Source: Macrocystis pyrifera (lineage: Eukaryota > Sar > Phaeophyceae > Laminariales > Laminariaceae). Taken from it: a stretch of 64,000 nucleotides of DNA. Positions within the stretch are counted from its first letter, which is position 1. Each line of letters begins with the position of its first letter. The notes under the pieces were generated by a model. The model was given only the letters and a program-made list of their open reading frames with translations. It made no database searches and had not been told where the DNA came from. Of this stretch, positions 1 to 64,000 are shown piece by piece. The position numbers were made by a program, and so were the translations under genes. The DNA lies in contig JASSKH010000014.1 of the NCBI GenBank assembly GCA_031763025.1, positions 9,104,563-9,168,562 on the forward strand, written 5' to 3'.

Positions 1-2
1 CA

Positions 3-95
3 ATAGTACCAGCAGAGCATGGAGCTGACGCTGCAGGCATGAAGGACATGAAGGACGACGCTACCACTGCTGATACCATCGCCTTTATGACGTGA
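3..95 (+). CDS. Possible C-terminal exon of a gene entering from the left
   Basis: An open frame runs from the window edge to a TGA at 93-95 and gives about 30 residues with an alanine/aspartate/lysine-rich composition (…GMKDMKDDATTADTIAF…). The codon choice looks more like coding DNA than the AT-rich repeats that follow. No domain is recognisable in so short a piece, and no upstream sequence is available to show a splice acceptor. It could be the last exon of a gene lying mostly outside the window, or chance. Confidence 0.3.
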   Translation: MVPAEHGADAAGMKDMKDDATTADTIAFMT

Positions 96-30431: not shown

Positions 30432-33400
30432 TCACAAATCAATGCTGAACTCTGAAGCAATTTTAATCTTGAGCGCACGGGTCATCCGTAATTTGCGCAA
30501 TTCCTTCACGACGAATTCAGGCGCAGCAGAATAAATCGACCGCAAAGACTCCCACGTGCGCTCCTCTGCTTCGAAACCATCCCAATCGACCAAGACAATC
30601 ACCTCGTTGGCATCATCTTCGGCCACATGCACCAAAGCATTCATGCGGCATTCACCCTGCGCAAAGGAATGTTGGAAAACATCCTTCAGATCAGCGGTGA
30701 CGTTCAACGTCGCATCCGCATAAAATCGTAAACGAGCCACGTGAGCTTGATGCACCTTCCCAGAAACGATGTTCTGAACTGAGTACACATGATCATGATC
30801 AGCTGCTACCACACGCCACGGACCAGTCCATGTGGACAACAATTTCGGTGTGACACCCTGCCGACGAACACGAGCATACAACACGAAATCACCAACCGCA
30901 AATTTTGGCAACACCACCTGGCCCTGAGCCTGTTTACGTTTGTTGTCGCGAGACACGGCAACAGCTGCGCGAATATCGGCGCAAAATCTCTCCTGCTCTG
31001 CAACGACTTCACGGACGTTCGCACGCAACAAGTCAGCATTCATCACGTCAACATTCCACCTGCCATCAGACTCAGAAACGAGCGCCGAGAAATCGGTACG
31101 CGGAGCACGCCCAAACATCACGCTGTACGGAGTGCTTCGGTAACGTTCACGAAACGAAGTGTTCAAGGCCCACTGAGCGGCCGGCAAAACATCAACCCAC
31201 TCCGAAACCTGACGACGCTGTTCTGACAGAATGGAACGCAGAGCACGTACCACCTCTTTTACCATGCGTTCACACGTACCGTTCGACCACGGCGTGTAAG
31301 CGACAGCAAAACGATGTTCGATGTGCAACGCGTCGCTCAACAAAGCAAGCACCCTGTTCTTGAAATGCGTGGCGGTATCACTCACCCACACACGCGGCAC
31401 CCCCAAAGTCTTACACCAGGCTAGCAAATGCTTCGCTGTGACCTCGGCTGTACAAGCCTCGGCCGGTTCCAACGCCACGTAGTTGGACAAATCATCCATG
31501 ATGACCAAAACATATCGGAAACCATCCTCATCAGGCAGGCCATCGCTACCTTCGGGCCCGCTGTGGCCAACATACAAAAAATCAAAGTGCACCACTTCTC
31601 CCGGAGCGGTACCATGCACCGTGTCTCCGTAGGGACGAGGAATGAGTGCACCTGCACGCGTGTCTACACAGTGCAAACACTGGCGAACGAATTCGCGAAC
31701 CTGAGAATCCATGTGAGGCCAAACACAATATTCCTTCAGGCGAAACAAAGTCGGCGCCACACCACGGTGACCAGCCGAGCGCATGTGCGCGCACACCATC
31801 AAACGAGTTTGAAGAGCAAGATCATCCGGCGGAATCCACAAGACGTCACGCACCCCAACACGCACACGAAACAAACCATCATCGGCCAAGGTAGCTTGAC
31901 CGAAGGTTGTCGAAAATTCATGAACACCAACGCCGATACGAGCGACAGACCTTTGTTGCGAGGCACGAATCACATCCAATGCGGGAAGCGAATCGTCAGC
32001 ATTACATGGGCTGTGCACGGCAACCGAACGAACAGGCACCGTAGGAACTTTGACCCAACGAGACAACAGATCCCCCCAACAGTTTCGATCGCCAGGGATG
32101 TGTTCGATTGCATAGCGGTATTGTCCTAAAACACCCTTCCAATTCTCTAGGCGTTGTGCCATGGTCTTTGTGACCGTCGTGACACACTTCTCCGGATTGA
32201 AAATGTACTGCAAGTTTCGATGATCAGTAAAGATATGAACACCACCCCAAAGCAGGTATTCGAGCCTCCGGAACGTATTAACGATCGCAAAACCTTCTTT
32301 GTCGACAGTCGCTCAGCGCAACTGCGAACCTGTGAACGAACCACTCAGAAATCCGAGAGGCTCGTGAGACATGCTTTCCAACGCCAATCCACTGCGAAAT
32401 TCGTGTTCAGGCACTTGGGTGAGAAAACTACCCCAATGGAAATCAGAAGCGTCAGGAAACATCAAAACAACGCACCCGGGACGAGGATGATGAAGCGGCA
32501 CTGCTTGCGCCACCAAACCCCGTGCGGCATTCCACGCCCGCACCCGATCCTCCGTCCACGCGGTATCCTTGATGACACGATTGCGCGCCACTCGCTTAGT
32601 CCGACGTGTAGCCCCAACAAGGAGCTCCTCCAAAAAATCATGTAACGGTGCTACCGTTTCCGCTAAACGTGGTAACGATGTACGCAACCAGTTGACAGCC
32701 TGCAAGAATTGCATTAGTTCTCCAGCGTTTTCGGGACGACGCATTTCACTTAAACCTTGCACTCGAGCGGGGTCATGGGACACGACACCATTGGAATACA
32801 CCTTACCACACCAGACCAGTTCACGAGAGAAGAAAGTACACTTGTGGGCGGCGACAAACAGTCCAACATTCTCCAGGCGTTCAAGAATGTCATCAAGCAG
32901 CTGCAGAAGAGCTTCTTCGGTGTCTGCGAAAAAGAAAACGTCATCGACCCAAACTTTGCAATCCAAACCACGCAACACTTCAGTCATGACACCTTGGAAA
33001 TAAGAAGTCGCATTCAAAACACCTTGGGGAACACGGGTAGGCGTGAACAAACCGTCGCTTGTCGCCATGGTGAAGACGTCTTGCGCCTCCGGAGCCAAAG
33101 GCATCTGCCAGTACCCTTGAAGTAGGTCCAGCTTGCCGAAGAAACGCGCCCCCAGCAGATCTCCCATGTCTTCATGGTTGGGCATGACGCCCGGGGACTT
33201 CTCCACCTGTGCGTTCACCGCCGAGTAGTCGCTCACCAAACGGAAAGAGTCCTTCTTGGGCACCGCCATCGCCGGACTCGCCCACACCGCCTGGATGTTG
33301 TGGTAGACAAAGCCAAAAAACACCAAAGCAGCAATGCACTTCGAGAGCCAGTCCCTTTTCGTCGGTTCGTACCGACGTGGCGTTGCCTTGACAGGCTTCG

Positions 33401-35441
33401 CCTGTTGCTTCAGCTGCACTCGCATCGGCTCCACTTGCGCTGGCGGATCACCACACAGCGCACGGCGAAAAGCACCCACGCGACGAGCCAAAATTTCGCG
33501 CAAACGGGTTGCTCCGCCGACGCTTAATCCACTCTGCTCTGCCTGCTGCACGCTGTCCTCCAACGCCCGTTCTCGGGCCGTCCGCTCCTCCTCCGGATCC
33601 ATGAACATGTCTGGCCCCCGGTCGACCAAATGTTCCACCGCCTTGTCCTCCGGAGCATCCACCGTAGCCTCGGTCTGAAAAGCACGCACGGAAACCGTCA
33701 CTCTGCGCGCCGCAAGGTAACTCGGAGTCTCCACACCGGTCGAGACCGGCACTGCGCGAGGGCGAAGCTTCTCCAGAGCTTCGCGGTAGACGTCGATGCC
33801 AAGAGCTTTCATGGTAGCCATGCCAAACAGAACGACGTTATCTGTACCAGGCATGACCGCGAAAGTGATGGGCTCCAATTTCACCGCTCCCCACGGCGTC
33901 CGTACACTCACGGCAATCGGCACCGTTTTGTGCGTGACCATCACTGAAACACCCGTAGCGGTTTTCGCCTGCTGCGGGCCATTTTCGAACGGAATTTGCA
34001 GATCGGCGCCGCCGAAATGCGAAGACAGCTGCTGAAGTAAGCCGACACCGATGGACGTGAGCGCCGACCCCGAATCAAGGATCACACGCGCCATCAGCGA
34101 ACCAACCGACCCTGGCAAAGAGAGATCAGCGCGTAAACACTCAGCGCTGCGATCGACAGGCACTTCACCTGCCGTTGAACTCTGGTCGGTACCAAGAGTC
34201 ACCTGACGCCATGGCTGCCCTCCTACAGCCGGCGCCGAAGAAATAGAATCGGCGGTCCACCCCGACCAAGACGTCGAATATACAGACGGTTCCGGCGCTA
34301 CCGCCCCTGCAGCAGCACCAGACACTGACTCCGCCCGCTCGGTGGATGGCGAAGTTCTCGCTCCAGCAGCACCCACCGATGTTCCAGCTCCTCCAACGTA
34401 TACAGCTCGGCCGGCAACAGACGAACCAGATCCCGACCCAGCGGCTCCTGCCGCTGGCGCACCAGAAGTTGAAGAAGCAACAGCAGAAGTTCCACCGCCC
34501 GCTGTCAATTGATTGCCACCACGGCCACCGCGCCCGCGTCCATGGTTGAATCTGCCCCGGCCGCCATTGCGGCCCCCGCGATACCCTGACGACCCGCGCC
34601 CACCACTGCTGGGAGCTGTGCCGCCACCGCGAGCTTTTGGGCAATCAGAAACATAATGGTTGGGATCACCACACTCGAAACAGACGCGAACAAACGACTT
34701 TTTCGCGGACTGCTGCTGTTTCGGTTTCTGCTGCTGTTGGCGTCGCGGTTCAGCTGCCCCTGCAGCATCTTTCCGACCATACGCCTCGATGAATTTCCAC
34801 TGTTCTGCAGCAGAAAAAATTTGGTCCATGACCAATGCCGGGTCCTTCTTCCACCCTGCAGCGTACGTTAGCTGACCTTTTACGTACTTTTTGAACTCGG
34901 ACGGCCATAAGCCATCCACCAACGCCATGCTCACAAATTCCGCCGGTCCGGGCAACCACGAACGGTCCTGCGCGCGGTACATGGCATGCACCGCGTGATT
35001 CTCCGCAAAATACTTTTCCATAGCGGAGTTTACCATCATCGCGCGGTCTTTGACGGATGTTTCACCGCCCTGCTTTTCATCGCGCCTCATTGAGAGAACG
35101 CGACGCAAGTCCGCTGCCGCCCGCGAGGTGTCAAATCTGTTGCTGGTGGTTGTGTAACCAGCGTGCTGCCTAACAGCGTCCAACAACTCCGAGGCGGTCA
35201 TCGTAGTCTGATGCTTGTAAAATCCCTCAAAACACCGATGAATGTAATTGGGGATAAGCTGGCCCATGCTCACTTTGGAGTGCTGAACCACCCCCTGAGC
35301 GTTGGCGAGCTGCAGCCGTTCCTCATAATCGAGGTACGCTGCGTAAAAAACACGAGAGGCCTGCTCGGTCCACACCTCTCCGTATTTCGGTGGAGTCAGA
35401 GACTCCCCTACCACCAGCGGCGTGCTTGCCGTGTGCGCCAT
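30432..35441 (-). CDS. gag-pol: Chromovirus gag-pol polyprotein, interrupted by one in-frame TGA
   Basis: ATG at 35441, final stop at 30432; 1,669 codons plus stop if the TGA at 32313-32315 is read through. In order: Gag with a CCHC zinc knuckle (CFECGDPNHYVSDC, residue ~252), a Gly/Arg-rich nucleic-acid-binding stretch, aspartic protease (ILDSGSALTSIG, ~453), reverse transcriptase (DYSAVNAQ; GYWQMPL; catalytic VWVDDVFFFAD, ~830), RNase H (MFPDASDFHWG, ~995), integrase with HHCC zinc finger (GHRGVAP…CLHC) and DDE residues (HFDFLYVG, VSDTATHF, CERMVKEV), and a C-terminal chromodomain (VLVDWDGFEAEERTWESL). Upstream and downstream halves share the same frame, so only the TGA separates them. It falls between …GSFTGSQLR and ATVDKEGFAIV, inside RNase H. 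Either this copy carries a single inactivating point change, or the element uses stop readthrough. Confidence 0.95.
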
Positions 35442-37317: not shown

Positions 37318-37339
37318 GCAGCAGTAGTAGTAGCATTAA

Positions 37340-37401
<62 letters not shown>

Positions 37402-37598
37402 AGAGTAGGAGTAGGAGTAGTAGTAGTAGCAGTAGCAGTAGCAGTAGTAGGAGTAGGAGTAGGAGTAGCAGTAGCAGTAGCAGTAGCAGTAGCAGTAGCA
37501 GTAGCAGTAACAGTAGCAGTAGCAGTAGCAGTAGGAGCAGCAGTAGCAGTAGCAGTTGGAGTTTTAGTAGCAGTAGTAGTAGTAGTATTAGTAGCAGC

Positions 37599-37632
<34 letters not shown>

Positions 37633-37660
37633 CTATTAATAGTAGTAGTAGTACTATTAA

Positions 37661-37692
<32 letters not shown>

Positions 37693-38060
37693 TAGTAGTA
37701 GTAGTAGTAGTAATAGTAGTAGTAGTAGTAGTACTACTACTACTAGTGTAGTAGTACTACTACTACTAGTACTACTACTAGTACTAGTAGTAGTACTAGT
37801 ACTACTACTAGTACTAGTACTAGGAGTAGGAGTAGGAGTAGCAGTAGCAGTAGCAGTAGCAGGAGTTGGAATAGGAGTAAGAGTAGGAGTAGGAGTAGCA
37901 GTAGGAGTAGCAGTAGCAGTAGCAGTAGCAGTAGCAGTAGCAGTAGGAGTAGCAGTAGCAGTAGCAGTAGCAGTAGGAGTAGGAGTAGGAGTAGCAGTAG
38001 CAGTACGAGTAGGAGTAGGAGTAGGAGTAGGAGTAGGAGTAGGAGTAGTAGTAGGAGTAG

Positions 38061-38104
<44 letters not shown>

Positions 38105-38310
38105 TTTATAGTAGTAGTAGTAGTAGTAGTACTAGTAGTACTAGTAGTATTAATAGTAGTAGTAGTAGCAGTAGTAGTAGTAGGAATAGTAATAGGAGTA
38201 GGAGTAGCAGTAGCAGTAGCAGTAGCAGTAGCAGTAGGAGTAGGAGTAGGAGTAGAAGTAGTAGTACTAGTACTAGTAGTAGTAGTAGTAGCATACTATT
38301 ATAGTAAGTA
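37318..38310 (+). repeat. ~1-kb variant trinucleotide array (AGT/AGC/AGG)
   Basis: Nearly uninterrupted trinucleotide repeat in blocks: AGT-rich, AGC-AGT, AGG-AGT and mixtures, with occasional ATTAAT interruptions. Between about 37725 and 37825 the repeat switches strand to ACT units and back several times, producing dense CTAGTACTAG-type palindromes. Long poly-Ser, poly-Val and poly-Leu frames here are repeat artefacts. Confidence 0.95.
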
Positions 38311-49190: not shown

Positions 49191-50247
49191 TTGCTGACGG
49201 TTGGCGCTAAAACGCTGCATGCCAGAACACATTTTCTCAGAGGCGAGTCAAGGGCCACGACAACTCAAACCCAATTTCGATGCTTTCCATTTCGTTTCGG
49301 CGCGAATGAACAATTTGTCCGGCATTAGGCAAGATTTCTGCCACCTGACGTCGACAGCGCAACGCACGCTCGAGAACATACGCCTATCGGTCTACGAGTG
49401 GATTACCGCAAATTGTGTGTGGACAATTGGTCTACCCAATTTACCGACTCAATGGTTTCTGAATTGGCGGCGCGGCCCGCCACGAAAACATATGAACTTT
49501 TAGACTAAGGTTAGCGAGGGGGGCACAAAATATTCGATGTCGAGTTTGTGGCCTGATGACTCGTCAATGTATCTAGCATTTAGGTAACTTGCTAGAATCC
49601 ATTCAAGTGACTGCGGGTGAACCGGGAACGTCTGGTTCCCGCAGAGTATGCGGAGTATATAATATCCTGAATGGCACCAGCAGGTCCCCCTACCGCCGAT
49701 GCCATACATGTTGGTACTGTACAGGTTGATACTTGACATTCCGCCTGTTCCCGAAGAGGTCTAACCGCTGATAGTTGGAATCCATTCAACTTTACTACTC
49801 TCGGTAGGTTTTTTGTCTATATATCGATAGCCAGGACGAAGTGTGGCATCCTGCTCAGGATCTGTAGACCACTCGGCTTGCACTAAATACCCGATGACAA
49901 GTATCGTCGACTATACCTGGTAAGGCACAATAATAGTGGCGATGTTGTCCTTTATTCTACGTATAGGGAAAGCTTTCTCCTCCATAGTTCACCGCTATGC
50001 TTGTCCTAGGCATCTTCCTTGCAAGTGAACCCAACAGCATTCGGTTGGTTGTCGGTTTAGGGGCCGGACCTTAATAAATGCTACAGTATTTCGCACAGGA
50101 CAGTTTGGATACGATGCAAGCTCGAGACGCATTCACTCCGAAGTGTTTGTCTTGAGATGACTCTGTGAAGCGTCATACACGTAGACACCAGATATGTAGG
50201 AAGGCAATCCCTGACTCTCTGCTTTTCCGTGCGTCGTTTTGAACAGC
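49191..50247. other. Upstream region of the beta-helix gene
   Basis: An open plus-strand frame at 49201-49503 (100 codons) reads like protein (GIRQDFCHLTSTAQRTLENI) but has no recognised domain or clear splice link to what follows. The 250 bp before the gene's ATG at 50248 contain no clear TATA box by eye. Confidence 0.35.
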
Positions 50248-50713
50248 ATGGGGCTTGCCTTTGTCGTCGCCATGGCGGCCATACTGGTTTTGTTCTCGTC
50301 GTTCACGACAGTAGCAGGGGCAGCACCGTGTCCAGCTGGTGCTGTTTCCATGGACGTGGCCACGACTGCCGAGCTACAGGCCATGATAAACACGATCAAT
50401 TGCACTGGTGAAGGGATTTTCGACGTGACTTGGATCGGCAGCGTACCCCTCGTACAGACTATTGAAGTATGCGAAAAGAAGCAGCTGACTGTTACCGGGT
50501 CAGCTTCGACTCCCACCAACCTTCCGGGCGCTACCATCGACGCCGGGAGCACGACGGGAATATTTAGGGTCTACAACGGGTCCACGCTCAACCTCAACAA
50601 CTTGCTGCTCGAGGGAGGAATTTCAAGTAGTGGCGCGGCGATCGACGTACGGGTTTCCAGTTCTGTATATGTAGCGGATTGTGCCTTCACGAACAACAAC
50701 GCTACAACTGGAG
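50248..50713 (+). CDS. Exon 1: signal peptide and first beta-helix domain
   Basis: ATG at 50248; the in-frame TTG nine bases earlier is not a plausible start. Residues 1-25 are a hydrophobic leader ending at an Ala-rich cleavage region (TTVAGAAPCPAG). Then come TIEVCEKKQLTVTGS, ATIDAGSTTGIFRVYNGSTL and SSSVYVADCAFTNNNATTGG. It ends GGA G|GTGAG. Confidence 0.85.
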
Positions 50714-53700
50714 GTGAGACTGTGCATATAGAGGTATACAATTCACACACGCAGCAAACAATGATATCTATTATACTTAGGGTGTAGATAATAGTGTGTG
50801 CTACGATTCTGCGCGCATGCGCTTGGCATTTCAAGGCGAAGTCTGATGCAGCCTCGGAAAATACACTGACGGTTTTACGGCACTGAAACACGCTGGATTT
50901 CTCGTCCGTGGGTAAAGCATCTATTCCCAGGTATGCAGATATGTATGGTTATCGCATTTGCCACATTTATAAACTAAACGGCACGGGGAACAGTAACTTG
51001 CGGGCTTGAACAAACGAGCTGTGCGCATGAAAGCTGTCTCGAAGCTACCGTTCCGTGTTTTGGACTTCCGCTGCGTCGATCCATGTTGGAAATTCCAAAG
51101 CAATGGCGTGCTGTGCATTAACCCGTGTTGTGTGCAGCTGTCACACAGGATACCCGCATTTACCATAGATTTCGGACAGGCGCAGAGTCTACCGGCTTTT
51201 CACGGAAGAGTGCCGAGTAGTGATGGTGATGGTACGGTGATGTCAAAATCGCTACGCAAGATATGGTTTCTCGTAGCTATTTGACGATTTTCAACGAGAC
51301 ACCAGCACGGTATTGGTTGCTTGTTGGCGATCCGACGGCTTGGGGGGCATCTCCACGTGATATCAGGCGCTGTCACAACGTGCACGCTACGATACGGCAA
51401 TGAGTACAGCTTAGGACATACCCCAGTTCCCGTGTCCCCAATTCCTTACGAAGCCCTGAAGCGACAACAACTGTCCTCGTGTGGGGATTTTTTTCGTTTG
51501 TGTGTCAAGTCGAAGGCAGTCACTCCCAAAACAAAGAACTAAGTAAGAAGAAATAATTATTCTCGATCAAAATAGTTGCCAATCGCCCTTTCACTTGATT
51601 GTGTTACCCTGTTCCTGTATGGCGGTAGTACGTACCAGTACATACATATGCCGGCACTATGATCTGACAGTACGACATTGTTTTATCCATGCAAGATGTT
51701 CTTTTTTTTTACATTTTGGTGCGCCCTGAGGGCAATCGTATTACCAGGTGTATGTTTTAGGACGAAACCAGCATCCGTATACTTTTACACCTTTTGGGCC
51801 GTTCATAGGTACACTGCATATTGCACACGAGAAAAGCCTTTCAGGCCCTCCACATCGCCCGATCGTACCTGTTGTTGGCTGAGAGGTTTTAGGCGCACTT
51901 CCTTGCGTCTATTACAGTTGGGTTTCACCTATCATCGGTTTGAAGTGGTAGATACATGAATGGCTAAATTGAAGCCTTTTCTGTCAAAACTGGAATACGA
52001 CCACACGGCCGTCAGGACCAAGTGATGCTAACGAAATTACCAACAGCTTGCGCAAACTTACGGGAGGTTGTATTATTACACAGAGTACCGCACATTCAGT
52101 AAGAACTCAGTGAGAAACTGGACTGTTGGATACGATGAGCTTTATCACTCGGCAAAGAGGCTTTAGGTATGTACAGGTTGACCCATTTTCGTACAATTGA
52201 AGTCGAACATAGTTGAAGCCCAACTTGATTAGATATACCTGGAACCTTTCAACCGGCAATAGGTACGATCGGGCGCTGACCAATTTTCCCGAGTACAAAA
52301 CTTAGCTTATTATCTAGAACGGGCTCAAACAGCTGTTTATACACCTATTATAGGTTTTTGCCCTTACTTACTGTTTCTGAGGACTTTCAGAGAACACCCA
52401 AATGCGGCAACAACGATCGTTGGAATTCCATCTCAATATGCACCTACATGTAAGAACTCCTGTACATTAGTATTGACCGCTGACGCGCCTCGGCCCCGAC
52501 TTCCCGCGGCAGGCCATGGCCACGGCACGACCAGCCAGGCTTGCAACGACTGGCGGCAGGTTTTTCAGGGACAGCCTCGCTGGATTTATCTGCCTTCCTT
52601 TTCGATTGAAGAGACATGAGGAAAATCGAATACTTGGACACATATAGCTGTGAAAAACGAACACACACACCATTCAAAGGCCTATAGCAAGACAAAATTG
52701 GAGGGGTGTCAACAAAGCGTCTTTTAGGAACACACGCAGGAACAGGGTCTCCTCGAAGACTGCAGTTAGCGACGACTATATCCATCGAAGTATTGATGTT
52801 GGCATTGCATACCGTGTGCATGCACCTGGGCGACCAAGGTGAACCAAGCTGGACTACTGGTGATACTCGATAGGCGTGGGAATCACCAGCGAAAAATAAT
52901 GCCGATACGAAGACGTTGCGAACGAGACTACAGTAGAGCAATGCGTATGCGATACAAGCTTCAATGTAGTTGTGACAATCATTTACGCAACATTCACCAG
53001 TTTCGAGTATAATATGTTTTGTTTCTCCCGGCAATATTGTGGTGCCGGGCCTTGATCGTATGTGGAAAACGTGGACTACGGTCGTAACTTAAAATAGGTG
53101 GACCTTGTCTCTGCCTCGGTGATATGGCTTTAACTGTCATGTGGAGTCGCCGCGGGTCTCTTATTGCGCCGTTCGGTGATCTGTCTTCGTGCTTGATGAG
53201 TTTCGCTCCGCGCGTCCAAGTACAGAATATACACGCCGTGTGAAATCGTTTGGGAAGTATACACACCCGTACGAATACGTAGTTGATGCAAACCAAATTG
53301 TATCAAAGAATTACTCCGCGAAGCCCAGCATCCCTAACCGTCCGCGCCCGCCCTCGAGAATACTGTAACTGAACGCTGCTGTACGTGCAAGATTCACCAT
53401 GCTACTGCGGAGATCTTTAAAATGTACTACATGTACTATTGCCCCTCTTCACGTACTGCCAGGTGCTATATATGCCGATTCGTCCGAGGTATACATACAA
53501 GGCGACACCGTATTTGCGGACAACTCAGCTGAAGACAACGGGGGTGAGATATTACCTTACATTCATCAGACAAACTTGATGGTACGATACTGGAGTACCT
53601 ACAGTAGCGCTGCACAAAATACCCCAGAAATGAAGCGCGTGCAGCATTCTCCGGTTTTCCCGCGTGAAAACACGCATGGGGCGCCTCGTTTCCGATCAGC

Positions 53701-56700
53701 AAGGGCATCTACCGCAATCCACTTTCACAGTAGAGAACGCAATTTTCACGGTGGGTATGCCATTGCCGCATTGATGACGATGTAGCGATCACCAGTTCGT
53801 GCTATATATGTTCTGCCTTATATCATATAATGAGGGCGGTGTGTCAGGTTGAAGCTTAATCTAGCCCAGCGAAGGAGTCACAGGAAAACAACGTTTTGAT
53901 TTGACTAGCCGTGACGCACAAGCAATGGGAGAAGAGGGGCCCCGAGAAGGTGATAAATATATTTCATGTAGCACAATGTAGTCGCATACAGCCGTAAACC
54001 CACGCGACTCACGCAAGCGTGTGCATCGGCATGCGCAATTGCTTGCAAAAGTACGATCTTCCTGTCGAAATGAGGGTACATCCACGATTAAACAGACGTA
54101 CACCTGGTACACAATTTACGACCCACATCGTCGATGCAGCACGTGCATCCTTCGGAAAGGGCACCCTCTTCATTGTACCCCTGTGTTGAAAGACTTCCTT
54201 ACATCGACATCATCCACGGCGTCTCCGATGTCGTATACTAAGATACCATACTGCAGTAGACTATGGGGTTTGTTACTATGCTGTGGTATACAATGTTTGA
54301 TATGGTGTGGCATATGGTGCTGAAAACGATATTAGTTCCGCTTGTGGAGACGCACCAGAGGCAATTGAGAGGCCCTCTGCTTGAGGAGTTTAATAATTGA
54401 GCATCTGTCGATAGCAACCTCTATGATTCCCTTTAAATCTCCGGAGAATCTTGTTTTTGCGGTGTTCATATTCGGCAGTGCTTCCTGGGCTGGATGCGAT
54501 CGTTCAGATGAGCAGCACAGTACTACTCCAGCAGTATTCGTTAGTGCGGGCGGTGAAGCACACACGGCTTGAAAGCAACACGTTCGATACGTGAATACCA
54601 CAGCAGCAGCCCCATGCCATTGCCCGGCCGTATAAAAAAGAATTATTAGTCGTGACTCGGGAGGGGTCGCGTTCGTTGTGCGAGGAGTCAGTTGCTGTCC
54701 CTGCATGCGCCGTACTTGTTTGCCGATGTTCCATGGACCAAAAGATAGTCGGTTGAGACGATGGGGTTGTCGATTGTCGACATGATATGAAGGTATGATG
54801 CGCCTCACCAAATGGGTACAAACTGCACACAAAACATGCTGACTTGTGAAGTAAGGCATTTCACTTTTCACGCCGCCTTTACCAAGCGATAAACCAAATC
54901 GCAGCGCATGAGGCTAGTATAGATAGACTATGTGTGACAAACTCAATTGCAGGCCAGACTACAGGAGGTATATTCTAGATGAACATGCGTTCGTAAAGCA
55001 ACTGCTGTAAGCTGCGAGTGCCGATACGGTTCCCATCACGGGGTCTCTAGCGTGCCAACACCCTTCAGTTGCCACATATCTGCGTGTATGTGCGAAGGCT
55101 CAAGAGGGCCAAGGAAATAACACTCGCTATGTTATTCCTTTTGTTGGGTGCTGTATTTGCCGAAAATGTGGAATTGAGAGTGAACGGCACCATTTCGGTT
55201 GCGAATGATTCAGCCGGCAACGAAGGAGCTAAGAAAGTAGACTACACACCATGTTCAATTTTACGTGGTTTACTTTCCGTTTCCGGCGCAATCGCTCACT
55301 AGTCCGTACACTGCATTGCGAACTCGCGCGGTTTGCTTCACATGGAATGTACTGTAGTTCGACCACTACGTTGACAAATGAAGCCCACAGCGGAATATGG
55401 CATGGCGATGTCGTTGAAACGGAAAATAGGAGCGCCATCGTCAGCGACAAATCGAGCGACAATTGCCACCGTCGGCTTTTGCTTAAACATCAGTATCATT
55501 ATCAACATCAGTATCAACATCAGTGTCAACATCAATATCAGTACCTACATCAGTACCAGTGTAATTGCAGTAGTATTAACATAATAGTGACAACGTCAGT
55601 ATCGGCATCAACATCAACATCAACATCAACACTAACCCAACCCACAGGTTCATAAAGCACGAGGTAGTGTTGATTTGCCGGCGGGTTATTTCCTGCAAAG
55701 AAGCTGAAAAGAGTAGAGCAAAGAATCGAAACACCGGTACAACGATAGCCCTTGTACAAGTTATTTCGCATCGAGACAAGCACGTGCAGGGTTGTTGGCG
55801 CTGCTATGATGCACCAGCCCAATCTTATACGGCAGTTGTTCAATATTTTAATCAAGCACATTTGACTCGATATACGCGTAGATCACTTTCTAGTGTTGGG
55901 TACATGCTGTTGGGTGTTGGTCGGTGATGAAGATGTGTACATAAAACGTTGAAGGCACGCCTGTTATAGTTTTTACATCAGTGAGTGATATAGTGGTATG
56001 CGACGATCTCTCGAGAAAGCGTCGATGGCAAACCTCAGCAACTCTACCCAATACCTGTGCGTACTACGAGCTGGTTTCAGCGAGAAGCACAAGATTTCAC
56101 CTTCGGGCGACCAAATATACACACCACGTCGATGGTTTTGATACTGAACATGTCTACATGACCGCATCAACATGGGGGAGAAATGCCTGTCACGTTCTTG
56201 TTTTTTCGAGCCTACAAGGCTGTGACAAGAAACGCCTGCCAGAGTACCAAAGCAGCGTATTGAGCAAGTTTGCATTGAGTAAAGTTGAAACCTTGGGGGA
56301 AAAATTACCCTCACGCGAATTTATGTTTGGACAGATATTTTTTTATATTTGATCACCAAACCTTGGCATGGTTGCTCTTCATGGCAACAACAAAGAAAGC
56401 GAGGGGTGGCTGTTTTGGGTTTTGTTTGGGCGTCAGTTAAAGTCAAAAGTGCCGAAAACTCTCGAAAAAAAGTAAAATTGAGCCTTAAGAACGAACAAAA
56501 CAAAAATCAAACAAGGTCAGGTCTCAATTGGGTCACATCACCATGAAGAACAACCGTGACAAATTTTGTACTTCAGCTCTCTAAAACCATGGTGCAGACT
56601 TCCGACGCTAAAAATCTTCCGCCTGTCGCTGGAACCAGCTCATACAGTACGATTGATCTGTTTCTGGGTGGTACTAGCAGACCCTTCGAAGGGGGAGTCC

Positions 56701-59700
56701 GTTGCATAACCGGGTACCTGGAAATCCGGCAGGATAACGACTACCCGGGTAGCTGGATACGCGAAACACCCTTTCACTCACCGGATCTGGCGTCGAGCGC
56801 TATCCTTCTATCCGTTCGGTAACCGTGAAGACTCACCGACAATCCGCTTCCCTGCCCCCAGGTGCCATCTACGCGTCTTCCTCAAATATACAAATCGTCG
56901 GCGAATCATTTTTTGGCTTCAACTCAGTTGGAAGCAGCGGAGGTAAGATCATCGCGTTGGCTGTACGCGCTTCTTACAGATTCTCGGCGTACCTACTGTA
57001 GAACCGCATACAAGAGACCTTCAGTGTTGTAAGCTGAACATTACCGTTGTGCACGAGAATGTCTTCGCCAATATGATAACATGAGTATCGCGACGTCGTT
57101 GGTAGTTGATAGTTGCGCAGATCAATATGCTTTCGTACTTGAGTACATGCTGCTGGTCTTGGGGTCGTACTGCGCGACTGATTTTCACAGCTATCGCAAA
57201 CGAGCGTTGGAAAGCATCGGGTGTCTTCGCCTTGGAAGCCTTTCACAGGAAAGTTTACATATCTTCTGAAAGTAGTACTGTAGTATACTGGCCTGTACTG
57301 TAGTTTAATATGGTAGTCTCCGTGCGGTTATATTAGTTGAACGTCGAGTCTCCACCCCTCTTATTGGTGCAAGCGGAGTTCAGTGTAAGTGGTGCGTTCG
57401 ACGTCCACTGCATAAAGTGGTCCCAGTATGCGCCAGATTTACGTCCATCTAACGCTTGACTTGCCAGCCTTGAGTATGAAATTCGGAGAAGACGTTCAGG
57501 CCGGCATTGCCCTGTTACATGGTCGTCCACGAAGTTTGAGGATGTCTTTTTTTATTTTGTGTATACTACATGCAGGCGCATTGTTTGTACACAACTGTTC
57601 AGCCAACATCACCGGCAGCATCACCTTCGGTCACCACTACGCCGGAGAGGACGGAGGTACGAAAATATCCAATGCGTTTCCTACAAACCTGCGATGCGTT
57701 TTATTCGTCGGGTAACTAATCTACGAGCATAGTGTAGACCGCACACTTTATTTCGAGTATCAAACGAGTTTTGTTTTTTCAGAACTCTGGTCGTCACTCA
57801 GACAGTTACCTCAGCAACGAGCACGGACGGCAATGCCGAGATAGTTTAGGTCATGTTAGGCGAAATCTTGATCACAAGAAGATCAGTCTACCGAACCCGG
57901 CGCCGATTCACAGAGACTTGACATGAATAGTCCAGGAGTCCACACGCCTGCAGTTCGGCACAGTGAGACGACTAAATACGGAACATATTCCAAGGTGTTC
58001 TAAAACCCAAGAAACGCCGCCAATTGGGGTCGCTATCAACCGATTCCTCATAATCAACCGATTCCTCATAACACGAGTCTATAAGTGCACTATTTGTGTG
58101 TATTCCTTTAGCTTCCGGTTGCTTGGGCACTGAACCGTGTCTGCATCTGTATTACTGATGTACTTCCTACGTGTAGTGTAAGGCTTTTAATGCGTCAGCA
58201 TTGCTTGCACGGTAAACGACAGCCCATGCAAGCGACCGACCTGTGTCGTGATCATAGCGGAATTGCTATCTAATTGTTGCTGGAGCGTCGCGCGTAGTAC
58301 TTATTTTCCAGATGAATGCCCTAGGCCCAATTATGACAGTGGCTCGCGTTTGACTTGCACGGTGAACGTGATGTTCTCGTGAACTTGCCTACTAGGTGTC
58401 CCACGCAAGCACAAAACTTTCACTACCACTACTTGCAAATACGAAACCTGGAATAGCATTAACAAGATCAAACGTTGAAAAGAAACTAGACCAGACGTTG
58501 AAACGAACACAGCGGCTTATCAACAAATCGAAATATTCACTCTTTAAGTAGACATGTCAACATATCAAAAGGCAGGACCGCAGGCTAACAGCATCGATGG
58601 CCCGCATCGAAATATTCACTCTTTAAGTAGACATGTCAACATATCAAAAGGCAGGACCGCAGGCTAACAGCATCGATGGCCCGCGCTCAGTGCTCCACGT
58701 CAACCTACTACTGTACTATGTCGTCTTGTGGTTGAAAAGTGTATCTGCTCATGGTAGCTCAGGTACAATAAGACATTTCCAACTTGGCTGCCAAATACTA
58801 CCCGGTCAGTATTGTCAGCTCTTCAGCGTCAAACGTATTTCCTGATATGAGCAAAGCAAACACTGCGGTCGTTGGGGACTCTGTATCGTTTTGCTTCAAC
58901 GTCAGACAAGATTGAGTACACACAAGGCTCGCTCCACTCGCCATTCTTGGTATTCACCAACGCTCCGCCGGTGCCAATGTATCATTGATCATGTCTGTCT
59001 CGTTCGAATGCTCGTATCGCCTCACAATGTTTGCCACACCGTGAGCGAGTGGTCACAAATATATTTCAGTGAAAATGAATACAACTTTACAAAAACAAAA
59101 TGGTTCCCGCCTCGCCCGTAGGTGCTGTGTCTGCGTACGAGTCGCAGGTTTACGTCCATGGCATTTCTACGTTTCGGGGCAATTCAGCTCTCGAAGAGGG
59201 AGGTGAGAAAGGGTGCACCAAGGGCTCGATCAGTATACTGTACATACTAGCATATAATATTCTTGGTATGTGATAGCGCGTACCTACTGTAGTCGGTCTT
59301 GGATTCGTATGGCCTACCGTACGAAAAATCAAACTGCATCAAGTACCTTTTATAGAAGCAGTAGGGCTAGGGTATGGTTAACGTCAGGATGTGCTGCGCG
59401 CACGTGGACTAGACGTACCTCAAGACCTATGTTCTCTCGGCATCATCTACTCGTGAGGCAATGATGATAGGAAAAACCCCTGCCCATTGCTCGTGCCCAC
59501 ATAAGGACGTGGTGGGGAAACCTCAAGCGTATGCGGAGCCATGAACACAGTGGACACGCAAAATGAGCATACCGTCGTGCGTCGTAAAGGATTGCCTGTC
59601 TGGTTTTTAGCTTCGTAAACGTAGGCCTGATGCACGGATATCTATCTTGTACTGGTGTGTATTGGCATGACACACGCTGTCTATCAGAAGTCGGCAACAC

Positions 59701-62700
59701 ATGCCGCGACACGTTAGCATTGCCATAGTAGCAAGTGTGTTATGCTTACACACAAATAAAGGGCAAAGGCAAACTGCTCAACGGGGCATGCGCAGGTACT
59801 GTAGGTCCGTTTCAATCGATTCCCCAATATGCGCAGCTCCACCGCCGCAAGGCAGCACCCGTACCACCTGTAGGTGCTTGTTCATCGCTAACGTTTTGCG
59901 AACTATTGACTACACCATGTTACAGAACAACGCTCGCATGATGCGGTTATTGAAGGGGTTGGGCGAACGAACTGCTGGCATTCTCGTCGACGCGCGTGAC
60001 GGTCGCAAATGCTCCGCCCTTTATCTCTTGACGTAGGTGCCTTGTTTGCAAAAGATTCGGACGTACACATCGATGGCGAGACATGGTTTGAGAACAACTC
60101 AGCCGGCGATAAGGGAGGTGAGAAATTGCACAATCCTTTTGGGACTGATAAATTATCTAACCCTAAGTTACCTGTTTGCACAGGTAGCGCAATTCATGCT
60201 GTAAGGGGCAACGCCTTCAGACGTTTCCGTACCTGTGCTTGCGTTTTGATCACACCCGTAATGATCAACTAAGTTATACTAAAGATTTGTTGCGAACTGC
60301 CGTAGTAGACAAATACATGTGGGGAGCGACAGGGAGTATATCACAGGGGACCGCCTTCCTCCGCTAATTTTGGTCACCGGGACCGACGATTAAGCGACCA
60401 TCGTCGGCACTTTGTCAGCGAGACCACCCTGTTAGAGGATAAAATCAGTGCCACCCAATCGTTGTTGCCTTTTATTGCACCTCGAACCCAATATTGTCGC
60501 ATTTTCAGCCTTTGTTTGCACTAAGTATCCTCGACCAATACGGGCCAGCGTGGAGCCCAGGCGGGCGTCAGCCTGCCGCAGCGAAAGACCCTTTGTAAAA
60601 TCATATATTTATATATCAGGTATTTGTTAGTAGCTTGTCCTTACATTGTGATCATGCTTGCATTGTTCAACTCTTGCCCCACAACAAAATTACATTTCGT
60701 TGCGCGTCTCCCCCTTCTACTGCTGTAAGGTTAACAAGTTATCCCACCAGTGTTTTTGAGCAATTCCACATGCATTTGATTTATTTGCTTCGGACCACTG
60801 ATCGGGAAGCTCAAAATAAAAACAAAAACAAAACAAAAACAAAACGTACGGAGCTCTATGAGAAACAAAAAATCACGCACGTATGTCGTTCGTCCTATTG
60901 TTCCCCCTATCAAGGAAGATCTTGTATGTACGTAATTCGAGTTTGTATATATTTGTTTTGGTCGGGCCAACCTCTATATATGTGAGATCTCAATTGTTGA
61001 CCTCGTATGTGATACCTTTTCTGAAATCTCCTTTCGTTTCGTAGCCGCAAAATATTTACAGTATGTCGGTATGCCTGTTTAAGCGGATGTGCCTCATTAC
61101 TATCCTCCCTATTCGCAGGTGCAATTTCCGCCGCCATCTCGAACATATTTCTCGACGGCCGGACTATGATAACGAACAACTCAGCGGTTGACAACGGAGG
61201 TGAAGAAAGACTCGTCATCATGGAATCATATAATATGGCGTCATCGCCTTAGTAGACTAAGCGATGTGGCACCATGCATGGGGTTCGAACGATGCTGGTC
61301 GTATGGCGATTGGGTTTGAACAATGTAATGCGGTTTCACTTTGAGTGTTTCGTATGAGTTACCATGCTTTGGTGCTTGGGCTTGACGCCAAGGGATCAAG
61401 AACCAAAGAAACCCACCCTCTCCCCATGTTTTGGGGCGGTGTTGTTCGGAGTATTACTGGCCAGCAGATATGTATTGCTACGAGCTGCAGTATCCTAGCT
61501 CCCACGTTTGATAGCAAAGGATGAGCTAAGCGGCCTTTTCCTGCGCATGTGCTGAGGTCCATGGTAGCCAACTAACAAAAAAAGGCAAACAACTATAAAT
61601 CGAATATTCTAGAGCTCGAGAAACAGACTTGCGTCAGGTGCCTTCGCATTTACCGAGTCACAGGTGTCCACGAGAATAACTTTATCGTTGCAGCTCTTTT
61701 TCGTACACACGCACAGTAAGACAGAAACTAGAGAATTTGTCGACGCTACTTTCAAACGATTTCCGGGGCGACGTCTCGTGAAATCCCTAGACCCGTCGTC
61801 TGCCAACGTCGTATGTCGTTTCTAATTCGTTCAATAGGTTGGATGTCCGGTTTGGCGTGTCGCATAGATCGGATGTCCCCTTTGACGCTTTACGTAGATC
61901 GTATATCCCTTTTGACGCGTTGAGGGCGCCGGGTGTCCCTTTTGACGCTTGAGATAGATCTGATATCCCTTTTGACACGATAGTTGAGCCGGATGTTCCT
62001 TTTGAAGCGTTGACAGGTCAGATGCCCCTGCTGATGTGTAACATAGGTGTGATGCCCCTGTCGATGCGCTTACTACTGCAGGTGGGATAATATCTATTTT
62101 GACGCGTTCAAAAAGTCAAGTAGTCGAATCGTCGCACTAGCTAGCTAACCCCTCGTGGTTTGAGCCTCCTATAGGAGATGCAGGTCTCTCGAACTCTAGT
62201 CGGGCATCACTATACAATATTTTAGAGTGCTGAGTTTTGCCTGTCGTCAAAATATGTCGTAGTGTATTAGGCCACCGATGGTTTCAGCTGACGACGAGAT
62301 TCCGTACCGACAGTGTCAATAGTGGTCGCTGCGCGTTTTGTTCTCCACGCACGAAACGCAGAATCAAACGCCTCTTGTCAATGTCTAATATGAGTCCTTT
62401 ATAGCACAGCAGCGGGGATCGGGTAAACCAAATCCGTCTTAATTTATTTGTGTTACATAGACGAGGTAATGTGAAAAAAAAAGGCTCGGCCATAATATTC
62501 CATATTTCAACACGCCCCCTTGATGGGAGCTCGGTCGCTAGAAGAACGTATACAAAAATGTGTTGCAAGCTGCTACAGAGTGACTAAGGTTATGCTTGGA
62601 CGATATTTTTGGCCCGCGTATGAACGGCGGCAACACGTCATGTACTCTTGTTGCACAATACTCGTTGTGCCAACATTTGCGGGTTATGTTCTACAAACCA

Positions 62701-63972
62701 AGTGCAGACCCATCTGTTGTGCTTTATAGACCCCCCTGGATAGAATCCTAGAGCTAAGAAGACGAATATAATAGAACATAATATCCTAAAATCCTGCAGG
62801 TTTCTGCCCTGTACAACGTGTACCGTTCAGTTCTTGTTAATAGCTTGTACTCGTAATAATACCGAAGGATCAAGGGCAAGTAATTCGGTCAACTAATTTG
62901 TCGATTGGCTGTACAAGCTACCCGTGGTACAAAGACCTAGAACATAGGTGTGATACCATACAAGCCCAGCTGTCATATAGTATCGACGACATTGAAGTCT
63001 GCTACTAGTATGTGCTCCTGGGTGCTCTGATCACCTCTCACCTCGCCTTGATACGTCAGTCTAATAGGCTTCGTCAGCCTCTCAGATCGGCACCATTTTC
63101 CTGGCATCGTGTCGCAGCGTTCGTAGCATGTTACCCGCGTCTCTTTTGCGGACCTCTAACCCAACGTCGACTAGGACTGGTCGTGAGTACGAGCAAGATT
63201 CACTGGTCTTTTAATCAGAAGGCGTGTATGAGGAATGGTGCGCTGCGTACCTGTATAAACCAGGGTCCGGTCTGTCACCTGTCATTATGTGCACATAGAC
63301 AACGAACTTAAACAGGTAAAGATGTCGACATGGTGTCGTCACGTCGCACCTGTAGTATTTCCTTAATATCGTCCTGTATTCCCACAAAAATCTGAACGTC
63401 ATGGCAATTCTAGAAGGATGTTAGACCTGTTTTTTTTCACTCCACGGTGAGGGTTGAACATTTTGGGCGAAATGTTTCTTACCAATTGAGTTCCTTAAGT
63501 GAATAGCTACCAGTTAGGATGAACATTTTACTCGTATATTCGTTTTAGGACTAGCGCATACAAGTGCCAGTCGGATGATCCGAACGAATTTCTTCCAAGT
63601 ATTGTATCGGGTGAGATATTGAGCTCCTAATGCGAGGGACTCAGGAACGTCGGGTGCACCCCGACTGTGGGATAGCGTATTACACCAAGTGAATCTACGT
63701 ATTTGGCTTCACTTTATGGTTGGTCCTCCGGTAGAATGGGCCTCGACTATTCGCAGCGCCCTTTGGGTTGTTAAATCTGTCATTTTTCGCGCCCTCAGGA
63801 ACGGCACCCGAGACCGCATTTTATTCCACTGCAACTGCGCGTAATGTGACGAATCGGAAACACCAACGAGACGTTGTCCTACCCGCAGGTGCTATCTATG
63901 TGGCGGTGGACTCTAATGTGTACCTCACCGGCGAGTCACATTCGAGCTACAACTCAGGGAAACGCGACGGAG
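50248..63972 (+). CDS. Secreted parallel beta-helix (pectin-lyase-fold-like) protein, many-exon gene, 3' end outside window
   Basis: Nine usable exons are visible: 50248-50713, 53463-53543, 54905-54967, 56862-56942, 57576-57656, 59122-59202, 60037-60117, 61119-61199 and 63889-63972. All have AG acceptors, GT donors and phase-1 junctions, so they join in one frame. Each junction rebuilds Gly-Gly. Exon 1 gives a signal peptide (MGLAFVVAMAAILVLFSSFT) and a first helix region (GIFRVYNGSTLNLNNLLLEG). Later exons give one rung each with the pattern GAxxA…S.v.i.G.t.F..NSA...GG. Such proteins are exported or cell-surface and may bind or modify polysaccharide. No catalytic residues can be assigned, so an enzymatic role is not shown. 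The family is known in brown algal genomes, sometimes labelled polymorphic-outer-membrane-like. Exon choice is by pattern without transcript data, and extra exons may have been missed in the long first intron. Confidence 0.75.
50714..53462 (+). other. First intron, 2.75 kb
   Basis: Starts GTGAGACTG and ends CGTACTGCCAG. A minus-strand open frame at 52444-53034 lacks an ATG start and is not called. A short rung-like piece near 52020-52052 (ANEITNSLRKLTGG before GTTG) may be a decayed exon. Otherwise nothing recognised. Confidence 0.5.
53463..53543 (+). CDS. Rung exon 2 (81 nt)
   Basis: CTGCCAG|GTGCTATATATGCC start; encodes AIYADSSEVYIQG and TVFADNSAEDNGG; donor GG|GTGAG. Confidence 0.8.
54905..54967 (+). 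CDS. Rung exon 3, short (63 nt)
   Basis: Acceptor GCAG|CGCATGAGG, donor GGAG|GTATAT. Keeps phase 1-1 but is 18 nt shorter than its relatives and encodes a degenerate rung ending VTNSIAGQTTGG. Its status as a used exon is less certain than the others. Confidence 0.45.
55148..55228 (+). pseudogene. Rung exon with both splice signals lost
   Basis: Exactly 81 nt, in the right phase, encoding AVFAENVELRVNGTISV and ANDSAGNEGG. The acceptor dinucleotide is GG instead of AG (55146-55147) after an intact pyrimidine tract (TTATTCCTTTTGTTG), and the donor is CT instead of GT (55229-55230). Skipping it would not change the frame. Confidence 0.75.
55480..55645 (+). repeat. ATCAGTATCAACATC hexamer-type low complexity in an intron
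   Basis: Irregular repeats of CATCAGTATCAA and related units, from about 55490 to 55640. Intronic; ORFs across it are repeat-driven. Confidence 0.7.
56862..56942 (+). CDS. Rung exon (81 nt)
   Basis: CCTGCCCCCAG|GTGCC; encodes AIYASSSNIQIVGESFF and GFNSVGSSGG; donor GGAG|GTAAG. Confidence 0.85.
57576..57656 (+). CDS. Rung exon (81 nt)
   Basis: ATGCAG|GCGCATTG; encodes ALFVHNCSANITGSITF and GHHYAGEDGG; donor GGAG|GTACG. Confidence 0.8.
58527..58684 (+). repeat. Exact 79-bp tandem duplication in an intron
   Basis: 58527-58605 and 58606-58684 are identical (ATCGAAATATTCACTCTTTA … GCATCGATGGCCCGC). The perfect match implies a recent duplication, or an assembly artefact. Confidence 0.95.
59122..59202 (+). 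CDS. Rung exon (81 nt)
   Basis: CCCGTAG|GTGCTGTG; encodes AVSAYESQVYVHGISTF and RGNSALEEGG; donor GGAG|GTGAG. Confidence 0.85.
60037..60117 (+). CDS. Rung exon (81 nt)
   Basis: TGACGTAG|GTGCCTTG; encodes ALFAKDSDVHIDGETWF and ENNSAGDKGG; donor GGAG|GTGAG. Confidence 0.85.
61119..61199 (+). CDS. Rung exon (81 nt)
   Basis: CTATTCGCAG|GTGCAATT; encodes AISAAISNIFLDGRTMI and TNNSAVDNGG; donor GGAG|GTGAAG. Confidence 0.85.
61830..62120 (-). repeat. 30-bp minisatellite in an intron
   Basis: About ten copies of a unit like TAGATCGGATGTCCCTTTTG + ACGCGTTGAG. Because the period is 30 bp, the minus strand encodes a 10-residue repeat (SKGISDLSQA, SKGTPGALNA, SKGIYDLRKA). No start or gene context suggests that it is translated. 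Confidence 0.8.
63889..63972 (+). CDS. Rung exon (84 nt), last in window
   Basis: CTACCCGCAG|GTGCTATC; encodes AIYVAVDSNVYLTGESH and SSYNSGKRDGG, one residue longer than its relatives; donor GGAG|GTAAG. The gene must continue beyond 64000. Confidence 0.85.
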
Positions 63973-64000
63973 GTAAGTGACCACCCGGTACTATGTGTGC

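Follow-up and report, generated by a model that had tools for sequence, protein, structure and literature searches.

We analyzed a 64,000-nucleotide stretch of the genome of the giant kelp Macrocystis pyrifera (contig C194:9104563-9168562; hereafter the window), together with 80 kb fetched downstream of it, for which positions past 64000 are given in window-continued coordinates. Toward the end of the window begins a gene that is probably one member of a large family of kelp proteins that span the membrane several times and have a beta-helix ectodomain, each turn of which has one symmetric phase-1 exon and could be dropped or added in frame. This reading draws on the anatomy of the exons, the fold of a relative, a membrane domain found in relatives and in genomic frames, selection on the exons, the death of one exon, and one-module differences between gene models.

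Behind a first exon, whose start is hydrophobic and signal-like by hydropathy, the window holds seven one-rung exons (Table 1), each open, bordered by AG and GT, and of phase 1-1. Joined to exon 1 from the ATG at 50248, they give an open frame of 345 residues, and the introns between them range from 633 to 3,318 bases. An earlier sequence-only reading had described seven exons of 81-84 nt in phase 1-1, and all of them (six of 81 nt and one of 84 nt) were confirmed; its equation of one exon with one rung of 27-28 residues is likewise supported by the exon anatomy. Its claim of identical GGA G|GT GC junctions stood for six of the seven starts (GTGC) and six of the seven ends (GGAG), the two departures being marked in Table 1. 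We then scanned the window with a rung profile built from 14 rungs other than the window exons, namely five from downstream exons, four from Undaria P0002, and five from Ectocarpus P0121. Among 2,034 candidate phase-1 exons on the + strand, the profile recovered six of the seven window exons at 18-49 bits, the seventh sitting in the last 200 nt, outside the scan. None of the 1,871 candidate exons on the - strand of the window exceeded 8 bits, and in 30 order-1 shuffles of 50000-64000 the score never rose above 7.7 bits; set against these controls, the seven exons exceed chance.

Table 1. Exons of the rung-array gene and of its neighbor in the window; counterparts are those of the closest paralogue, on contig C221
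Feature	Position in window	Strand	Remarks
Exon 1	50248..50713	+	signal-peptide-like N-terminus, cap region, first PMP rung; donor GGAG|GTGAG, phase 1
First one-rung exon of the array	53463..53543	+	81 nt; ends GGGG; C221 paralogue copy 80 nt
Dead one-rung exon	55148..55228	+	open frame with mutated acceptor and donor; C221 paralogue counterpart intact
One-rung exon	56862..56942	+	81 nt; paralogue counterpart intact
One-rung exon, GCGC start	57576..57656	+	81 nt; paralogue counterpart intact
One-rung exon	59122..59202	+	81 nt; paralogue counterpart intact
One-rung exon	60037..60117	+	81 nt; paralogue counterpart intact
One-rung exon	61119..61199	+	81 nt; paralogue counterpart intact
Last one-rung exon in window	63889..63972	+	84 nt; paralogue also 84 nt, intact sites
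Start of exon 1, neighboring paralogue	1..85	-	C194:9104189-9104647:-; array left of window

To the repeat models of the polymorphic membrane proteins (PMP), which are of the GGA(I/V/L) and FxxN type, the joined window exons matched well above the curated cut-offs (PF02415, 60.2 vs 20.6 bits; TIGR01376, 72.4 vs 15 bits). The beta-helix fold put forward from sequence was seen on an Undaria relative, 42% identical, which has a right-handed beta-helix structure; the model of this relative supports a right-handed PMP-type beta-helix as the predicted form of the window gene's rung array. Pfam listed PMP repeats, and no LRR, TPR, ROC, or NB-ARC domain, in the joined exons, the C-terminal frames, and eight relatives. 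A search of the kelp's own genome with PF02415 gave no matches, the 19-residue model being considered too short for such a search.

The gene extends about 35 kb past the window end. There we found eight further intact one-rung exons, at 67834, 69363, 70915, 72289, and 75467 (81 nt each), 76278 (84 nt), 85807 (78 nt), and 87105 (81 nt), which brings the whole gene to 15 intact one-rung exons and one dead exon. Next, at about 90.4-91.3 kb, the frames hold rungs without the one-per-exon division; a Cys-rich part lies near 92 kb, and hydrophobic helices, as judged by hydropathy, extend to about 99 kb, the C-terminal exon borders being approximate. The multi-pass membrane domain lies about 48 kb from exon 1. 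We assigned this tail to the gene because gene models of Ectocarpus, Scytosiphon, and Undaria join rungs and membrane tail. Ectocarpus P0121 and P0122 and Scytosiphon P0123, all three with PF02415, matched the C-terminal query over 98-100% of its length at 49-51% identity, and hydrophobic helices also occur in the C-terminus of P0123. Undaria P0241, at 38% identity over 82% of the rung query, shows the order of rungs, Cys-rich part, and hydrophobic tail. The description of the product as a secreted protein was therefore incomplete, since a gene that ends in a multi-pass membrane domain would encode a membrane-anchored protein. The TRP-like channel family PF06011 gave no match at E 1 in the C-terminal frames, and one of eight relatives, P0151, passed its cut-off (28.8 vs 28.5 bits); in a fold search with the P0123 model, meant to identify the membrane domain, no match reached E 0.001, and beta-helix proteins stood at the top of the list. 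A carbohydrate-active beta-helix enzyme, of the alginate epimerase or lyase type, is highly improbable: no enzyme family passed its cut-off in the window protein (Pfam, NCBIfam) or in the eight relatives (Pfam), the rungs are variable at most positions except the glycines, F, and N, and a membrane tail is present.

Loss of a turn is recorded in the window itself. The dead exon, which the sequence-only reading had overlooked, scores 12.7 bits and is in frame, with neither AG nor GT at its borders. Relative to its counterpart in the closest paralogue, on C221 (78% identical in exon 1), the A of the acceptor AG and the G of the donor GT have changed, and both sites are intact in C221; such broken splice sites, next to an intact counterpart, give direct evidence that an exon was lost in a frame-neutral way. 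The ratio of nonsynonymous to synonymous substitution rates (dN/dS) between the two paralogues is 0.51 for the other 15 modules (387 codons), which indicates that these are under constraint, vs about 1.1 for the dead exon, a difference that is only suggestive because the sample is small (27 codons). The 11 pairs of intact 27-residue modules hold 50 residue differences, of which 12 fall at rung positions 25-26, an excess in the loop before the Gly-Gly (nominal binomial p 0.0002).

The C221 paralogue, whose head and tail lie 131 kb apart, keeps the order of all 16 module positions, 15 of them with intact sites and the same length. Its first seven positions are collinear with ours and so are the nine downstream, where length and intact sites agree in 9/9; identity is 83-96% in the modules and 74-82% in the aligned blocks. 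Its first module carries a 1-nt deletion (80 nt), so that inclusion would shift the frame and skipping would leave it. We considered this paralogue as truncated, given that an alignment of its first 40 kb stopped at window 62029, and rejected the idea, as the rest lies further off within the 131-kb span. Collinearity at 16/16 positions indicates an old module arrangement that has been kept, unshuffled, since the duplication. The proposal that every exon can be added, lost, or shuffled is upheld for loss, with the dead exon and the one-module differences between gene models described below, and not for shuffling. One could take the dead exon here and the 80-nt module in the paralogue as signs that the gene is decaying, or mis-assembled, and yields no product. 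We give this very little credence, as 15/16 modules are intact, the C-terminal frames are open and 49-51% alike in other genera, and dN/dS is about 0.5.

The gene is one of many. In the kelp's own genome (537,376,219 bases in 223 contigs), we obtained 140 matches for the joined protein, in a protein search that lists none of the window gene's 81-nt exons and finds heads, not modules. Among the matches listed (the first 96 of 140), 66 look like heads of exon 1 only, 58 of them ending at query residues 157-159, and 30 run continuously through several rungs in one frame. Exon 1 ends in a GGNG|GTR donor in 25 of the 30 loci fetched (L009-L038), the window gene included. The membrane tail matched 138 places. 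To pair the two ends, we took 120 of these 138 tail rows and assigned to each head the nearest downstream tail that shared its strand and lay no more than 300 kb away: 40/66 exon-1-type heads found a tail, at a median of 61.8 kb and with four at about 12 kb, as did 26/30 continuous heads, at a median of 4.6 kb. A module-end signature occurs at 192 genomic places and its reversed pattern at none, while the signature shortened by one base, which served as a phase control, occurs at a single place, the 80-nt exon of the C221 paralogue. One-rung exons were present in all three further loci examined: on C54 (78 and 72 nt), on C211 (81 nt), and in the neighbor on C194. In compact family genes on C126, C202, C211, C220, and C223, several rungs share one frame and the tail follows at a distance of 3-10 kb; rungs were as regular as the modules in three of the five compact loci read and not in the other two. 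Thirteen of the 25 donor-bearing loci share a near-identical exon end and sit on contigs below 540 kb. Small contigs (e.g., C4, C13, C163) also carry look-alike exon-1 copies, and along one strand their module-end signatures lie tens of kilobases from each other; this may reflect a recent amplification with giant introns.

Head to head with the window gene lies a paralogue whose eight one-rung exons, all but one of them 81 nt long and the other 84 nt, are spread over 30 kb; no module was found in its first 10 kb, and its modules begin 14 kb in. Module by module, this neighbor is the gene closest to Undaria P0002. Four of the six P0002 rungs match neighbor modules 1, 3, 4, and 5 at 59-63% identity, vs at most 52% elsewhere in the table, and module 2 has no P0002 counterpart between the matched rungs; 262 of 20,000 random orders scored as well as the observed one. 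Ectocarpus P0122 is without exactly one 27-residue rung that is present in P0121 and in Scytosiphon P0123. By these gene models turn number would differ by one module between relatives, although missed exons could produce the same picture. The window gene with its neighbor and the relatives on C221 form two head-to-head pairs that resemble one duplicated pair, and C191 holds another head-to-head pair.

Conservation of this kind can also be read as a neutral relic, in which exon symmetry, a trace of repeat growth long ago, plays no part in diversity, and the family, as a structural wall or adhesion protein, loses exons by drift. The strict collinearity of the paralogues and the constraint on their modules agree with this, as does an exon order common to giant kelp and Undaria with four modules 59-63% identical. 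Against it stand the dead exon, the two one-module differences, and the 66 exon-1-type heads in one genome, again among the first 96 matches listed. We judge the chance of such a relic to be not quite even.

A self-comparison of 50001-100000 (blastn, E 1e-8) found no window intron that resembles another; the repeats it returned were local tandem repeats, a repeat of about 110 bp at 83.3, 86.8, and 90.0 kb, and a 259-bp pair at 93.0 and 96.8 kb. The suggestion that intron repeats provide recombination material was not supported, and recombination between them was rejected as a visible motor. The same dissimilarity bears on the origin of the array, since recent tandem exon duplication would leave likeness. 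By parallel intron insertion, a compact beta-helix gene with a GGAGGTGC-like word in each rung would have been hit by introns at AG|GT independently, with no exon duplication. The split does sit within the AG|GT word, and at L015, L018, and L033 several 27-28-residue rungs lie in one open frame, compact tails being mostly 4-6 kb away. On the other side, the rungs of the C-terminal frame at 90318-90827 have Gly-Gly-Ala without an intron, and absent intron similarity is a weak test because the modules, most pairs of which are 26-59% identical, are old enough to have lost it. We regard this origin as possible and rather doubtful. An intron of the array also contains a perfect 79-base tandem duplication (58527-58684), probably recent because its copies are perfect. 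Elsewhere in the window, retrotransposon-like frames lie on the - strand at 30432-35441, with a zinc knuckle and reverse transcriptase in one and an integrase in the next (Pfam RVT_1, zf-CCHC, rve, Integrase_H2C2), and an AGT-type microsatellite of nearly 1 kb spans 37323-38291.

Several points weigh against a family of membrane proteins whose beta-helix turns could be dropped or added in frame. Splicing rests on gene models and conservation, and the Undaria and Ectocarpus one-module differences are themselves differences between gene models. The predicted structure is that of the Undaria relative, not of the window protein, and no Foldseek match reached E 0.001. Similar rungs occur beyond this family, as a search with the rung part ranks mostly long PMP proteins first. 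Turnover in the C221 pair is slow, with one module dead here, a 1-nt deletion there, and none gained or moved.

We propose that every turn of the array has a symmetric phase-1 exon to itself, with the cut placed at the Gly-Gly-Ala junction (GGA G|GT GC). With the cut at the same point and phase in every turn, decay of a splice site, a deletion, or the skipping of an exon could remove a turn, and a turn could likewise be added, with no damage to the frame; the helix would only become shorter or longer. The beta-helix may form an extracellular stalk whose length and surface are set by the turns present and which might act in adhesion or recognition, with wall polysaccharide, microbes, or neighboring cells as candidate targets. 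Turn number would shift by exon loss or gain over evolution, and possibly also by alternative splicing. The array itself may have grown as a symmetric exon duplicated, or a compact ancestor may have received introns in parallel at its repeated AG|GT word. A solenoid repeat boundary that coincides with a symmetric exon boundary offers a clean natural test of exon-by-exon protein evolution. One genome holds spread-out forms (median 62 kb), compact forms (median 4.6 kb), and a duplicated pair in which an exon died after the duplication, and genomes of relatives have been sequenced, so that intron gain can be told from exon duplication and the pace at which turns are gained and lost can be measured.

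In the open-access literature, we found no description of one beta-helix repeat per exon and no account of a brown-algal polymorphic membrane protein; among the papers listed, one carried the phrase "polymorphic outer membrane", as a gene label in a quantitative PCR study. By their titles, publications on brown-algal parallel beta-helices concern polysaccharide enzymes, and those on exon shuffling and beta-helices concern TIM barrels and antifreeze proteins. A paper touching on Ectocarpus, beta-helices, and exons deals with an alginate lyase, one touching on the PMP repeat and algae deals with KNOX genes, and work on exon shuffling led to ROCO and related genes; passages of PMC4421812 and PMC8307928 mention no beta-helix.

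Among known proteins, Ectocarpus P0121 and P0122, Scytosiphon P0123 ("unnamed protein product"), and Undaria P0241 likewise combine rungs with a Cys-rich part and membrane helices. The likeness is one of architecture; where the kelp gene has 15 one-rung exons, the models from Ectocarpus and Scytosiphon contain 5 or 6 uniform rungs of 27 residues. With chlamydial Pmp (PF02415/TIGR01376) the kelp gene shares GGA(I/V/L) and FxxN repeat models over cut-off. The C-terminus of chlamydial Pmp is an autotransporter beta-barrel, whereas that of the kelp gene is helical and multi-pass, and its eukaryotic rungs are split by introns; a Pfam scan of six C-terminal frames found no barrel family, and these frames have hydrophobic helices instead.

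Brown-algal ROCO GTPase genes encode one LRR per exon (23 residues, 72 nt, phase 2) and show alternative splicing, and NB-TPR genes of brown algae have TPR-encoding exons, according to Teng 2024 (PMC11378527). These systems resemble ours in being brown-algal, in placing one repeat per symmetric exon, in forming big families of repeat arrays, and in their products being candidate recognition proteins. They differ from it in that ROCO combines LRR with a ROC-COR GTPase, whereas the kelp gene encodes a membrane protein built of PMP beta-helix turns (27-28 residues, mostly 81-84 nt, phase 1). Should the ectodomain have a recognition function, brown algae would have in it an extracellular counterpart of their LRR and TPR candidate immune receptors. 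More speculatively, and we hold this as a tentative idea, brown algae might possess a third, extracellular class of exon-modular recognition proteins: beta-helix membrane receptors whose turn number or choice is set by frame-neutral exons over evolution, perhaps per transcript, beside compact versions of the family. The closest precedent is the one-LRR-per-exon ROCO genes, and the kelp gene extends the brown-algal habit of one repeat per exon to a different fold.
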